Below the pieces are notes generated by a model. That model worked only from the letters and a program-made list of their open reading frames with translations. It was not told where the DNA came from and did not search any database. From positions 1-42,212 of the forward strand of contig CANQHD010000004.1 of assembly GCA_947623625.1 (NCBI GenBank): a DNA stretch of 42,212 nt. Direction: 5' to 3'. Shown one piece after another: positions 20,505 through 33,015 of the stretch (the first letter of the stretch is position 1; each line of letters begins with the position of its first letter). The DNA is from an uncultured Bacilli bacterium (GTDB lineage Bacteria; Bacillota_I; Bacilli_A; RF39; UBA660). The translations under genes and the position numbers were made by a program.

Positions 20505-20726
20505 ATGGATATAAAAATTAGAGATCATATCATTAATAATTTTAAAGGAGACGACTATGAAGCACTAAAAAGAGCCATTGATGAATCTGTTAAAGAACAA
20601 GATGAGGTAACTCTTCCGGGACTTGGTGTTTTTTTTGAACTTGTTTGGGAAGATGCAACAAATGTCATGAAAGATGATATTATTAAAATGATTGAAAAAA
20701 GAGTCAATCAAGCACAAAGCTCTTAA
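20505..20726 (+). CDS. sspI: Small acid-soluble spore protein SspI
   Basis: 73-aa minor small acid-soluble protein made in the forespore. The run TLPGLGVFFELVWEDA (about 44-59) matches the SspI hallmark LPGLGVLFEVIW, and the length equals the family's. Start supported by GGAGATGAAAAT-ATG. A sigma-G-like promoter upstream and a terminator downstream make it monocistronic. Proteins of this family are retained in the spore core; the precise role of SspI is not well established. Confidence 0.9.
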   Translation: MDIKIRDHIINNFKGDDYEALKRAIDESVKEQDEVTLPGLGVFFELVWEDATNVMKDDIIKMIEKRVNQAQSS

Positions 20727-20760
20727 AAAAACTCACTACTTTTCGTAATGAGTTTTTTTT
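20727..20760 (+). terminator. Terminator of sspI, shared with convergent rpsU
   Basis: Stem AAAACTCA (20727-20734) / TGAGTTTT (20749-20756) with extra TAC/GTA pairing inside and T-runs on both strands. It can stop transcription from both sides. Confidence 0.8.
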
Positions 20761-20962
20761 AGTTTTCTTTATTATGTGATTTTCGGGCATTCTTTCGAGC
20801 ATTCTTAATTGCTTCTTTTTTCGCATTTCTTCTTCGAACACCTGGTTTGTCGTAACATTCGCGTTTCTTGCATTCAGAAGGGACACCATCTCTTGCAACT
20901 TTTTGCTTAAATTTTCTTAATGCCATATCTAAGTTACCATTTTTTACTGTTACCTGTGTCAT
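20759..20962 (-). CDS. rpsU: 30S ribosomal protein S21
   Basis: 67 aa, small basic 30S subunit protein. It begins MTQVTVKNGNLDMALRKFKQ and ends in the basic tail typical of S21 (GVRRRNAKKEAIKNARK). Ribosome site GGGAGGGATAAAGT before the ATG. Monocistronic here, with a strong sigma-A promoter; in many Bacilli it precedes yqeY, which is absent. Confidence 0.97.
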   Translation of the reverse strand: MTQVTVKNGNLDMALRKFKQKVARDGVPSECKKRECYDKPGVRRRNAKKEAIKNARKNARKSHNKEN

Positions 20963-21065: not shown

Positions 21066-21236
21066 TCATTTTAATGGACAAATGGCATTTTCATCCAACC
21101 TTCTAATAGAAGAGCCGAGCGCTCTACCAGCATCTAATAAAACTTTTAAAAGGCTTGTAAATGAATTTAAAAGAGTTCCTGATAAAGTAATGCCACCTTT
21201 TATTTTTCTTAACTCTTGCTCTTGTAGCTTCTTCAT
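21066..21236 (-). CDS. Bacteriocin-like peptide 2 with double-glycine leader
   Basis: 56 aa. A 15-residue leader MKKLQEQELRKIKGG ends in Gly-Gly, the cleavage site for C39 peptidases. The predicted mature peptide has 41 residues and begins ITLSGTLLNSFTSLLKVLL. It contains one GxxxG motif (GRALG) and a single Cys three residues from the end of the run AICPLK. It is amphipathic and cationic (RR, K). AAGGAG lies seven bases before the ATG, and the start overlaps the stop of peptide 1 (ATGA). It is the last gene of the operon; no separate immunity gene follows before rpsU. Confidence 0.82.
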   Translation of the reverse strand: MKKLQEQELRKIKGGITLSGTLLNSFTSLLKVLLDAGRALGSSIRRLDENAICPLK

Positions 21237-21382
21237 CTCGTTTCTCCTTCACAAGTTTTTGGATGGACAAGCCCATCAATAATTCCTGAGATAAAAACTG
21301 CTAAAGCACCAATGCCAACGCCTAACCAAACTGAAATACCCCCATGAATATTCTTTAACTCTTTCATTGTTAACTGCTTCAT
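21233..21382 (-). CDS. Bacteriocin-like peptide 1 with double-glycine leader
   Basis: 49 aa. Leader MKQLTMKELKNIHGG (15 residues) is a textbook double-glycine leader with the conserved Leu/Met/Leu/Ile positions. The mature peptide of 34 residues begins ISVWLGVGIGALAVFISG, contains GxxxG (GVGIG), and ends HPKTCEGETR with one Cys. This resembles class IIb two-peptide bacteriocins. Start at ATG 21382, because GGAGG lies five bases upstream; a longer frame from 21415 runs inside the preceding gene. Both ends overlap neighbours by ATGA. Confidence 0.85.
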   Translation of the reverse strand: MKQLTMKELKNIHGGISVWLGVGIGALAVFISGIIDGLVHPKTCEGETR

Positions 21383-21726
21383 TGAATCCTCCATTCTTTT
21401 TCTAATAATTTCCAAAGACTTTTTTCTTTGTCTTTAAAATAAATTGTAAATGATTGATGCATTTGTTTTTTCTTAAAAAAAACTTCTAAATAATATAGAT
21501 CATCTTCTTTTTTTGTTTTCATAATTGTCAGTTGATATTTTTGATTTTCAATATACCCAACTTTATGAATTTGTTTTTTTGAACAGACTAAAATCGCTTC
21601 TTTTCCTCCAAGCATTTTACCACTACAAGAAGAATAAGGATAGAACTTAAAAGGCTCTTTTACAAACAGTAAAATGAGAAAAGCATATAAAACAAATAAG
21701 AAAATCAAACTTTTTTTTCGATTCAT
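21379..21726 (-). CDS. Small membrane-anchored protein of the bacteriocin operon
   Basis: 115 aa. Basic N-terminus MNRKKS, one membrane helix (about 6-22), then an extracytoplasmic domain of about 90 residues with two Cys (SSCSGK, LVCSKK) and alternating beta-like strands (KYQLTIMKTKKE, LYYLEVFFKKK). No family recognised. Position between transporter and peptides, with ATGA overlaps on both sides, suggests an accessory factor for secretion (replacing the usual HlyD-type protein, which is absent) or the immunity protein. I cannot decide between these two. Confidence 0.7.
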   Translation of the reverse strand: MNRKKSLIFLFVLYAFLILLFVKEPFKFYPYSSCSGKMLGGKEAILVCSKKQIHKVGYIENQKYQLTIMKTKKEDDLYYLEVFFKKKQMHQSFTIYFKDKEKSLWKLLEKEWRIQ

Positions 21727-23780
21727 TTTTCCACCTTTAATGTATATACCTTCTTAAATAAACAATCTAGTTGCTTATTATGAGATACGACGAGGACTAT
21801 CTTATCTTTTAAATAAGTTAATACATTCTTAGTAAGTTCAACTACTTCTTCCTCAGAAATACTTTCAAAAATTTCGTCCAATAAGTAAATATCTCTTTTT
21901 AAAAGAAGGGCTCTTGCAAGAAGAATTTTCTTTCTCTCTCCTCCACTAAAAATAGATGTATAAGTAGATAGTTGAAAGTCAAGAGTCATTTGTTTTTCAT
22001 CTAAAATTGGCTTGACATGCGTTAGTGATAAAACTTCGAAAAGCTCTTTTTCTTTAATCTTTTTTCCTAAAGTAATATTTTCTAAAATTGTTCCTGAAAA
22101 AAGTCCTTCTTCTTGTGATAGATAACATATCCTTGTTCTAATATCTTCTAAATTTAAATAATTAATATCCATATTATTTAAATAAATTCGTTTTTTCTGA
22201 ACAGGATAAAGCCGTAAAATACTTTTACAAAGAGTACTTTTCCCACATCCTGAAGCACCATGTAAAATCATGGAATCACCCTTTCTTAATTCAAATGAAA
22301 TAGTGGATGTAATTTCTCTTCCTTCCATTCGATATGAAAAATTGAAAACTTTTACTACTTTAAAGTGTTTGAATGGAGTGATGCTTTCCTTAGGAAAAAG
22401 TTCAACTTCACTTGAAAAAGAATCTAAAGCCTTTTTGGCTTCTTCACACACTCTTGGAAAAAGATAGAAAACTTCTAATATTTTTTGATAACTATTAAGT
22501 AACAATTCAAAAAATACATCCATTAAAAAATAGTGATATAAGCTTACTCTCTTTTTAAAATAAGCCACTAAAAAGAAAAATAAAAATAGAAATTTCAACG
22601 TTTTATGAACTATTTTTTGAAAGAAAGCTTTTTCAACATAGGCAAGCTGAAAACGATAATTTGCATTTTGATATTGAAATTCCTCTTTTTTTAATTTTGA
22701 CAAAAAACTTGTTTCCAAATGAAGTCCTTTTATCACTTCTAATTTTTCAAAGCTATCAATCAATAAATGATCTCTTCTTTCTTTATGAGAAAGATACTTT
22801 TGGATATAGAAAGAAACACGGTGAAATATTAAAAAGAAAAGAAGGAAAAGAATCCAAAAGAAAAAAGTAAAAATTAAAAGGAAATAAATGCTTTCCATCC
22901 CTATAAAAACAAGTCCCATTATAAAAATAGGAAGTTCTAAAAAGAAGCACTCCAAAGTGGTATAAAAATAAAGATAGACTTCTTCAAGTGATGTTGCAAT
23001 TGATAAAATTTCGCTTTTTGAATGCTGTTCAAAATAATAATAAGGGAGATGTAGATGCAGCTTTATCCACCGTCTTATAAGAAAGTAATAAGATTGATAT
23101 TGAATTTTTAAGAAGAACCATCGAAAAAGAAATAGACCCCCTTCTATTAAAAAATAAAAGCAAAAAAAGAAAGTAAAATAGATAAAAATATTCCAACTAT
23201 CATATGTTGTTAAAAGGTAGGAAAAGAAAATTTTTGTCTCTAACAATCCAAAGATTTCTAAAATAGATAAACTTAAATTTCCAACTAAGAAGAAGATAAG
23301 TTTTTTGGATAGAATATTTTGAGGAAATAAAAGTTTCAAATAATGTGTCTCTTTTTCATGTATTAATACACGATTTACTTTGAAAAATAAGTAAATTCCT
23401 GTACAAATTTCTTCCCAATATGTTAAAGATACATTATGATATCCTATAGAAGGATCCATTAAAAACACTTTATTTTGTTTGAGATTATATTCCATTACGA
23501 CAACAAAATGATAGTAACCATCTTTTTTTATATGGGCAATACAAGGATATTCTAGGGGTAGAATTTGTTGAATCACTCCTTTCTTTCCTTCTACTTTAAA
23601 CCCTAATTGTTCTCCTACTTTCAATAAGGAATAGGCACTTGTACCATTTTCTTTTGTAAGAAGCATCTTTTTTAATTTACTATAGCGAATATTTCCACCA
23701 TAGTATTTTAATATAGAAAGAAGACAAGCTGCAGCACAATCCATCATCTCATCTTGCAAAACTTTTGGTACTTTTCTCAT
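21723..23780 (-). CDS. Bacteriocin ABC transporter with N-terminal C39 peptidase
   Basis: 685 aa. It cleaves double-glycine leaders and exports the mature peptides. C39 peptidase domain (1 to about 130): Q9, catalytic C15 in MMDCAAACLLSILKYYGG, H91 in YYHFVVV and D109 in LMDPS. Then a six-helix exporter domain (about 155-440) rich in Phe and Leu. Then an ATPase with Walker A GASGCGKST, signature FSGGERKK, Walker B YLLDEI and H-loop VSHNK. All catalytic residues are present. Start supported by GGGGATTTAG-ATG. First gene of the operon, divergent from the HTH regulator. Substrates are clearly the two double-glycine peptides downstream. Confidence 0.93.
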   Translation of the reverse strand: MRKVPKVLQDEMMDCAAACLLSILKYYGGNIRYSKLKKMLLTKENGTSAYSLLKVGEQLGFKVEGKKGVIQQILPLEYPCIAHIKKDGYYHFVVVMEYNLKQNKVFLMDPSIGYHNVSLTYWEEICTGIYLFFKVNRVLIHEKETHYLKLLFPQNILSKKLIFFLVGNLSLSILEIFGLLETKIFFSYLLTTYDSWNIFIYFTFFFCFYFLIEGGLFLFRWFFLKIQYQSYYFLIRRWIKLHLHLPYYYFEQHSKSEILSIATSLEEVYLYFYTTLECFFLELPIFIMGLVFIGMESIYFLLIFTFFFWILFLLFFLIFHRVSFYIQKYLSHKERRDHLLIDSFEKLEVIKGLHLETSFLSKLKKEEFQYQNANYRFQLAYVEKAFFQKIVHKTLKFLFLFFFLVAYFKKRVSLYHYFLMDVFFELLLNSYQKILEVFYLFPRVCEEAKKALDSFSSEVELFPKESITPFKHFKVVKVFNFSYRMEGREITSTISFELRKGDSMILHGASGCGKSTLCKSILRLYPVQKKRIYLNNMDINYLNLEDIRTRICYLSQEEGLFSGTILENITLGKKIKEKELFEVLSLTHVKPILDEKQMTLDFQLSTYTSIFSGGERKKILLARALLLKRDIYLLDEIFESISEEEVVELTKNVLTYLKDKIVLVVSHNKQLDCLFKKVYTLKVEK

Positions 23781-23912
23781 CTAAATCCCCCTATTAGTAT
23801 TATGATAGCTTTTTTCAATTTTCTCCTTTTTTTGGGAAAGTTTATCAATTATTTTGACAAATAAAGAGGAAAAAGAATACCTGTAATAAAATTATGGTGA
23901 GTGGGTGGTATA
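23781..23912 (+). promoter_or_regulatory. Divergent control region between bacteriocin operon and regulator
   Basis: Holds TTGACA (23854-23859) for the plus-strand regulator without a clear -10 at standard spacing. A related pair of sequences, TTTTTCAATTTTCT and TTTATCAATTATTT (about 23811-23824 and 23841-23854), could be regulator sites. No clean promoter is visible for the bacteriocin strand, consistent with a need for activation. Confidence 0.35.
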
Positions 23913-24365
23913 ATGCAGTACATCAAAATTAGAAACTTACGAGAAGATAGTGATATGACGCAGAAAGATGTTGCAACCCTTCTAAAAGTCCAACGCTCTA
24001 CTTACACAATGTGGGAACTAGGAGATGTAAACTTTCCAATTACAAAAATTGTCAAACTTGCAGAAATCTTTGATACAAATGTGGAATACCTTTTAGGCGT
24101 TTCTTCAAATAAGCGTAAAGTACACTATCGGAAAGAACTTAATTATATTTATGTTGGAAACGCTCTAAAATTAGAGCGAATTAAAAGAGGAAAAACACAA
24201 AAAGAATTTGCAGATTGCATTGGAGTAAGACAGTCGAGTTATTCCTATTATGAAGATGGTAAAACAAAAATACCAACTGACAAGTTGGTATCTCTTGCAA
24301 AGGAATATCATATATCTTTGAATCAAGTGTGCGGTGAAATCAAAGAAGACATCTTTGCAATATAA
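23913..24365 (+). CDS. Transcriptional regulator with two tandem XRE-type HTH domains
   Basis: 150 aa. First HTH about 5-60 (DMTQKDVATLLKVQRSTYTMWE, positions about 14-35). Second HTH about 80-140 (GKTQKEFADCIGVRQSSY, about 93-110). No other domain is present. Two DNA-binding domains in one chain suggest binding to a long or direct-repeat site. It is divergent from the bacteriocin operon by 130 bases, so it is the likely local regulator. ATG 23913 chosen because GGTGG lies four bases upstream; a GTG at 23901 is also in frame. Confidence 0.85.
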   Translation: MQYIKIRNLREDSDMTQKDVATLLKVQRSTYTMWELGDVNFPITKIVKLAEIFDTNVEYLLGVSSNKRKVHYRKELNYIYVGNALKLERIKRGKTQKEFADCIGVRQSSYSYYEDGKTKIPTDKLVSLAKEYHISLNQVCGEIKEDIFAI

Positions 24366-31963: not shown

Positions 31964-31991
31964 AAAAAAGAGATTATTTCAGCTCTTTTTT
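31964..31991 (-). terminator. Terminator of the cotJ operon
   Basis: Stem AAAAAAGAG (31964-31972) / CTCTTTTTT (31983-31991), at the stop codon of cotJC, with a T-rich run after it. Confidence 0.7.
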
Positions 31992-32531
31992 ATAAGCATC
32001 ATAAAGTTCTTTAAATCGATTAAAATGCACAACTTCTCTTTGTCTTAACCATAAAAGTGGACCTAAAACATCTGGATCAGTTGTTAAATCAATTAAGTTT
32101 TCATAAACTGCACGTGCTTTTTGTTCTGCAGCCATATCTTCCGAGAGATCTGCTAGTGGATCCCCTGTTGTTGCAAAATAAGTAACCGTAAAAGGAACAC
32201 CATTTGCATCTGTTGGATAAAGTGCATTCTTATGTTCTGCGTAGTGTGGGTCTAATCCAGCCGCTTTTATCTCAGCTGGAGTTGCACCTTTTAAGAGTTG
32301 ATAAATCATGGCAGATATGATTTCAATATGGGCAAGTTCTTCCGTGCCAATATCTGTAAGAAGAGCTTTGCCACGGTTATCTGGCATTGTATAACGCTGA
32401 TTTAAATATCGAAGTGCTGCAGCTAACTCACCATTTGAGCCACCATACTGTGTCACTAAAATTTTAGCAAGGCGAATATCTTTATTTTTTATATTGACAG
32501 GATACTGTAGTCTCTTTTCATACTTCCACAT
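31974..32531 (-). CDS. cotJC: Spore coat protein CotJC (manganese-catalase-like)
   Basis: 185 aa. Ferritin-like four-helix protein with the di-manganese ligands of Mn catalase, E-L in GELAAALRYLNQRY, EELAHIE, DMAAEQKARAVYENL and REVVHFNRF. Starts MWKYEKRLQYPV like CotJC. It is packed in the spore coat and may remove peroxide. Start at 32531 overlaps the cotJB stop (TAATG); GGGAGG precedes it by nine bases. Confidence 0.93.
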   Translation of the reverse strand: MWKYEKRLQYPVNIKNKDIRLAKILVTQYGGSNGELAAALRYLNQRYTMPDNRGKALLTDIGTEELAHIEIISAMIYQLLKGATPAEIKAAGLDPHYAEHKNALYPTDANGVPFTVTYFATTGDPLADLSEDMAAEQKARAVYENLIDLTTDPDVLGPLLWLRQREVVHFNRFKELYDAYKKELK

Positions 32532-32998
32532 TACTGTATACCTCCCTTCCATGGAAAAGGTAATTCTTCCCATAAAAATGGACTATTGTCAAGAACATTC
32601 GCATTAATAGATATAGGTCCATATTGATTTTCATACTGTGTTCTAAGTTCATTTGCTTTTTTTCGAAATTGATTAAACATTTTTAACTTTGCTTGATCTG
32701 TTGGATGTAAATCCAAATATAAATTTAATTCATGAGCTGCAAAAGCAACCTCAGACATTTGTAAAAATAATGCCTCCTGTTCATTATGTGCGACTAATTT
32801 CTGAGGCATATAATTTTTATATGGAATATAAGTATTAACAAATAAATTTCCTAAAGTATATCCCTCTTTTGGTGTTCCTATTTCATCTTTTTTCATAGGC
32901 ATTTCATTCTTCATCTCATGCATTTGAGCTTGAGGATATAAATCTTCAGGATTAAAAAAATTAGACATGATGTTGTTCATCATATTATAATCGTTCAT
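32531..32998 (-). CDS. cotJB: CotJA-CotJB fusion spore coat protein
   Basis: 155 aa. The C-terminal 80 residues are CotJB: LNLYLDLHPTDQAKLKMFN, YENQYGPI, and FLWEELPFPWKGG. The N-terminal part contains a CotJA-like segment (GYTLGNLFVNTYIPYKNYMP, about 45-65) that in B. subtilis is on a separate protein. Fusion of CotJA and CotJB is unusual, or CotJA was reduced and linked to it. Start at ATG 32998 with AAGGAGG five bases upstream; a GTG at 33013 has no site. Operon partner of cotJC. Confidence 0.8.
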   Translation of the reverse strand: MNDYNMMNNIMSNFFNPEDLYPQAQMHEMKNEMPMKKDEIGTPKEGYTLGNLFVNTYIPYKNYMPQKLVAHNEQEALFLQMSEVAFAAHELNLYLDLHPTDQAKLKMFNQFRKKANELRTQYENQYGPISINANVLDNSPFLWEELPFPWKGGIQ

Positions 32999-33015
32999 AA
33001 ATTCCTCCTTCACTT

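Follow-up and report, generated by a model that had tools for sequence, protein, structure and literature searches.

Class IIb bacteriocins such as lactococcin G, lactobin A/cerein 7B and thermophilin 13 are made as adjacent peptides with double-glycine (GG) leaders and GxxxG motifs, and are served by a cognate C39 exporter. Such bacteriocins permeabilise membranes and need both peptides for full activity. The usual division of labour within a pair is between a hydrophobic alpha peptide and an amphipathic, cationic beta peptide, and an HlyD-type accessory protein beside the exporter is usual, though not universal. Class IIb systems are strain-specific, and bacteriocin loci in general are seen as patchy, fast-diversifying accessory weapons. 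Among solved exporters, PCAT1 (4ry2) and ComA (8hf4) combine the C39, transmembrane (TM) and ABC regions in one chain; the mycoplasma Mbov_0121 transporters (NF045998) come from reduced genomes. The locus described here shares much of this anatomy, but it is a near-universal core trait of a single bacterial order.

The locus lies in a window of 42,212 nucleotides (contig CANQHD010000004.1 of assembly GCA_947623625.1) from an uncultured RF39-type member of the Bacilli, and all coordinates refer to this stretch. It is an operon of four genes read on the minus strand from 23780 to 21066: a C39-peptidase ABC exporter of 685 aa (21723 to 23780), a 115-aa protein with an amino-terminal TM helix (21379 to 21726), the 49-aa alpha precursor (21233 to 21382) and the 56-aa beta precursor (21066 to 21236). 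The first-pass annotation had proposed these four open reading frames (ORFs), as an exporter, a small membrane protein and two GG peptides coupled by ATGA overlaps, and our analysis confirms both the ORFs with their positions and the coupling, since three 4-nt ATGA overlaps make up all three gene junctions. Good Shine-Dalgarno sites precede both alpha and beta. An alternative start for alpha at an upstream TTG (a mechanical 60-aa ORF) was dropped, as the ATG at 21382 has both a Shine-Dalgarno sequence (GGAGG) and ATGA coupling. Synonymous sites have almost saturated among members of the genus (pS about 0.46-0.85), whereas pN in the peptides is 0.15-0.26, and the ORFs of the operon are therefore coding.

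The exporter exceeds the Pfam cutoffs for both C39 (PF03412, 96 bits against 22) and ABC_tran (PF00005, 84.7 against 25), and judged by these profiles its identity as a C39 peptidase is certain. The full catalytic set claimed for it is indeed intact (Q9, C15, H91 and D109), as are the Walker A Lys, the Walker B Asp, the catalytic Glu and the H-switch, and the catalytic residues are kept across the family wherever the column is present (49-51 of 51 members). The closest solved structures are ComA (8hf4, 1.6e-49) and PCAT1 (4ry2, 1.4e-45), which share its single-chain architecture and its catalytic residues; unlike these, the exporter is partnered with one fixed peptide pair, and it is distant from them in sequence. 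It also falls below the cutoff of the peptide cleavage/export ABC transporter model TIGR01193 (186.1 against 523.85). Its best NCBIfam score is to the Mbov_0121 model NF045998, and although the two share an origin in reduced genomes, that score (230.2 bits) is well under the cutoff of 500. The exporter presumably clips the GG leaders and exports both peptides.

The alpha precursor consists of the leader MKQLTMKELKNIHGG and the mature peptide ISVWLGVGIGALAVFISGIIDGLVHPKTCEGETR, a TM-like helix with a conserved GxxxG followed by P-x-x-C; the beta precursor consists of the leader MKKLQEQELRKIKGG and the mature peptide ITLSGTLLNSFTSLLKVLLDAGRALGSSIRRLDENAICPLK, an amphipathic cationic helix with an invariant GxxxG, an RR pair and a carboxy-terminal Cys. 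Mature peptides of both kinds are about 30-41 aa long, with a mean peak hydropathy of 2.3 in alpha and a mean hydrophobic moment of 0.67 and charge of +2.8 in beta. In an alignment of 45 alpha sequences, GG, G37, P41 and C44 are invariant, with F30 and G33 at ≥90%; in 40 beta sequences, GG, G37, G41 and C53 are invariant, with R45 and R46 at ≥90%. Similarity between alpha and beta is detectable in the leaders only, and the alpha, beta and third-protein (see below) sets were separated by position, since iterative HMMs drifted together through the shared leader. GxxxG had been put forward as the class IIb hallmark of this locus. Both mature peptides do carry it, but the window alone lends the motif little weight, because shuffled versions of the mature peptides contain one in 61% (alpha) and 14% (beta) of cases. 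The family-wide evidence, by contrast, is strong: the motif occurs in 47 of 48 alpha (22.7 expected) and 48 of 48 beta sequences (11.9 expected), in columns that are invariant or conserved at ≥90%.

The precursors differ in how they relate to described families. The window's alpha precursor passes TIGR03949 (lactobin A/cerein 7B family; 23.1 against a cutoff of 21.5), while beta scores 12.8 on the same model and reaches no NCBIfam or Pfam cutoff. Across the family, alpha precursors match TIGR03949 in 42 of 45 cases and the lactococcin G-beta model NF038034 in 32 of 45, weakly, at E≤0.1. These matches lean on the leader, because mature alpha and mature beta searched on their own match no NCBIfam model. 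Beta, unlike its class IIb counterparts, represents a new sequence family. A further difference from class IIb is the invariant carboxy-terminal Cys of each peptide, which is usually its sole Cys: exactly one is present in 43 of 48 mature alpha and 44 of 48 mature beta sequences, and the last Cys is ≤8 residues from the end in every one. An alpha-beta disulfide would be the simplest reading of these cysteines; we treat it as hypothetical, because the window's genome yielded no DsbA-like PF13462 protein and the bond would therefore need another route. Disulfide bridge formation by single cysteines was described as not reported in bacteriocins in a paper on thermophilin 13 (PMC10059821).

The first-pass annotation had made its proposal depend on conserved homologues of the peptides beside C39 transporters in other genomes, and such homologues are found decisively. 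Of 98 genomes sampled, 52 contain the exporter at E≤1e-40, and 51 of the 52, with one match each, belong to the window's own family (f1; 59 genomes sampled, genome size about 0.6-1.9 Mb). Alpha and beta lie beside the exporter at 47 loci, nearly always as one of each, in the order transporter, 115-150 aa TM protein (where present), alpha, beta and, in some loci, a third small membrane protein. The order was sampled as a single large family, and the beta profile has matches in 227 of its 241 genomes (about 94%) and in 87 of 92 genera. When samples of the class (395 genomes) and of the phylum (392 genomes) were searched, genomes outside the family gave no beta match at E≤1e-6, save one leader-like match (G656, 1.3e-7), which was set aside as it is of leader type, sits among ribosomal-protein genes and has no exporter in the stretch read. 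Plasmid and phage collections contained no beta match, no beta peptide next to an exporter turned up in small genomes from other families of the class, and a scan of the genome collection with a single transporter query returned generic ABC matches only. Some loci depart from the usual arrangement: one (L086, G049) has four GG peptides in a row 3' of the exporter, as two alpha/beta-like pairs, the second of which lacks the carboxy-terminal cysteines and is a duplicated, diverged cassette; in another (L075, G020) a methyltransferase-like gene separates alpha from beta, at +594 to +1277 past the exporter.

Distances between loci follow those of the housekeeping protein RelA, with Mantel correlations of 0.50 for the transporter, 0.53 for alpha and 0.60 for beta (0 of 2000 permutations as high), and of 0.42-0.45 (p≤0.0015) when congeners are removed. 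Also, 26 of the 40 loci with enough contig have rpsU or yqeY on their downstream side; in the window this conserved neighbour, outside the operon's function, is rpsU (20759 to 20962, minus strand; PF01165). The RelA-correlated distances and the conserved position indicate that the locus is ancestral and mainly vertically inherited. Loss seems to have occurred in some genomes, such as that of the congener G004, in which no transporter and no alpha match was found, these being draft assemblies. Compared with the window, other members of the genus are 73-84% identical in RelA, 73-90% in mature beta and 62-65% in mature alpha, but 49-58% in the transporter, 38-46% in the beta leader and 36-39% in the 115-aa protein. 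Mature beta is thus as conserved as RelA and more so than its own transporter. These identities, together with the lowest pN among the operon parts, show that within the operon the peptides are under the tightest constraint, and point to strong purifying selection on them. A toxin-immunity arms race usually gives the opposite pattern.

In 22 of 47 loci the 3' end of beta is overlapped by the start of the third protein, a leaderless membrane protein of 34-62 aa. A profile made from the third proteins alone matches 30 of 48 mature beta peptides at E<0.01, but none of 960 shuffled beta sequences and none of 48 alpha peptides; the test used leaderless sequences only, with the shuffles as control, and the part in common is the GxxxG-plus-Arg segment. 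The set had been chosen with a loose G-x2-3-[GA] filter, and a recheck without the filter added three short ORFs only. The third protein looks like a membrane-anchored beta homologue and, as a possible decoy, is the best candidate for immunity. Next to the operon of the window's genus this protein is missing, and a search there for an unlinked beta-like immunity gene gave no convincing match. In the window, an ATG overlapping the beta stop opens a five-codon ORF (MSNFK; 21069-21052, minus strand) near the usual third-protein start of other genera, possibly a remnant.

The protein of the 115-aa type (115-150 aa) keeps the same position and layout in 36 of 47 loci and is the fastest-evolving component. 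A low-confidence fold predicted from a single sequence (pLDDT 56), of insufficient quality for a structure search, suggests a TM helix, a small beta-rich domain and a carboxy-terminal helix, and the protein has no significant Pfam match. The idea of a truncated HlyD found no support (hhalign probability 0.4% against three LcnD-type accessory proteins), and the protein remains a candidate export accessory or immunity protein. The first-pass annotation's claim that the operon lacks an HlyD-type gene holds for the whole genome, where TIGR01000 and PF13437 match nothing, and no such protein was found in the other genomes of the family that were searched. Pfam recognised no immunity candidate beside the loci, and eight of the 47 consist of transporter, alpha and beta only, with neither the third protein nor the 115-aa type; these three genes are therefore the only obligatory ones. 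A locus with no adjacent immunity candidate is unusual for a bacteriocin, and immunity in the minimal loci may be encoded elsewhere, redundant or unnecessary. Thus, of the earlier description as a compact bacteriocin operon, the dedicated C39 exporter encoded together with two GG peptides stands, but the label is too narrow and in part misleading for a mainly vertical core trait of an order, as opposed to a sporadic weapon, with strong purifying selection on the peptides and many loci without an adjacent immunity candidate.

Downstream of beta, no terminator scored above shuffles, and a TATAAT-type promoter-like site precedes rpsU (21024-20996). One genus member (L053, G005), unlike the others read, has a RelB/DinJ-like antitoxin-type ORF between beta and rpsU, at +745 to +1044 past the transporter. 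The window also encodes the small acid-soluble spore protein SspI (20505-20726) and, at 31974-33013, ORFs that by eye resemble the spore coat proteins CotJC/CotJB, so this reduced-genome organism may sporulate. RF39 bacteria are thin-walled and include both sporulating and non-sporulating species (PMC10868615).

The distribution raises the question of whether the peptides act mainly on other species at all. Retention throughout an order with reduced genomes (227 of 241 genomes, 87 of 92 genera) would make sense for a core physiological pair that targets the envelope or population of the producer itself, as in lysis of kin, killing linked to sporulation or remodelling of the membrane, and such a role agrees with the RelA congruence, the RelA-like conservation of mature beta within the genus, the fixed rpsU/yqeY position, the eight loci without an immunity candidate and the presence of sspI. 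However, a GG leader, GxxxG and a TM plus amphipathic pair are the class IIb antimicrobial design, about 6% of genomes and the congener G004 seemingly manage without the system, and an always-useful weapon would show the same retention; we regard the own-population role as a tentative alternative, serious but on balance unlikely. Its most specific form, a disulfide-linked core pair that is mainly population- or self-directed and is protected, where so, by the membrane-tethered beta homologue, seems to us distinctly less probable.

The operon is preceded by a divergent intergenic region (23781 to 23912) that by its position presumably holds promoter and operator, although a promoter scan found nothing above shuffles. 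Beyond it, on the plus strand, lies a candidate operon regulator of 150 aa from its ATG (23913 to 24365), with two HTH_3 domains (PF01381, 85 bits) each resembling a full Cro/CI-type domain; an HTH regulator occupies the opposite strand upstream in all five genus members read and in L066. This conserved neighbour, and the fact that the exporter's best solved match is pneumococcal ComA, could suggest that one or both of the peptides serve as GG pheromones. A pheromone role is quite improbable, because the loci that were read showed neither a histidine kinase nor a response regulator next to the exporter, on an unsystematic annotation of the flanks; in addition, the mature peptides are long, membrane-type and paired, and the HTH regulator is not family-wide. 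Equally doubtful is an ordinary class IIb member of the lactobin A/cerein 7B type, special in its host taxon only, which the TIGR03949 score of alpha and the two-peptide plus C39 layout would allow, but which is largely answered by the order-wide core distribution and the atypical beta family, together with the paired cysteines, the beta-homologous third protein and the lack of HlyD and of a shared or standard immunity gene.

The class IIb anatomy therefore leads us to favour, with little more than even confidence, a class-IIb-like heterodimeric, membrane-active peptide pair that is probably antimicrobial, even though the core, vertical distribution and the loci without an immunity candidate count against a bacteriocin-type reading. 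We infer the following steps of cleavage, pairing, disulfide formation, antimicrobial activity and immunity from the features above. The exporter would remove both GG leaders and secrete alpha and beta as an obligate pair of a hydrophobic TM-type helix and an amphipathic cationic helix. Their GxxxG faces would form the contact between them, as has been proposed for class IIb pairs, and a disulfide between the carboxy-terminal cysteines may lock the pair. The heterodimer would then insert into membranes of nearby bacteria, probably relatives, and permeabilise them. Producer tolerance may come from the leaderless, membrane-anchored beta homologue where it is present and, elsewhere, from the 115-aa protein or from differences in the target.

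No paper found, in the portions of the literature available, names this system or ties such peptides to RF39-type bacteria, and it is plausible that it is undescribed so far; the IIBacFinder gut atlas, which mined about 280,000 gut genomes (PMC12648078, available in part), could contain its sequences. The dozens of natural alpha/beta pairs are open to testing, and specific, cheap predictions on assembly and immunity follow from the pairing of cysteines and from the beta-like membrane protein. A two-peptide cassette that is kept by about 94% of sampled genomes, with beta constrained like a housekeeping protein, would, if this reading is true, make secreted peptide pairs central to the life of these uncultured bacteria.
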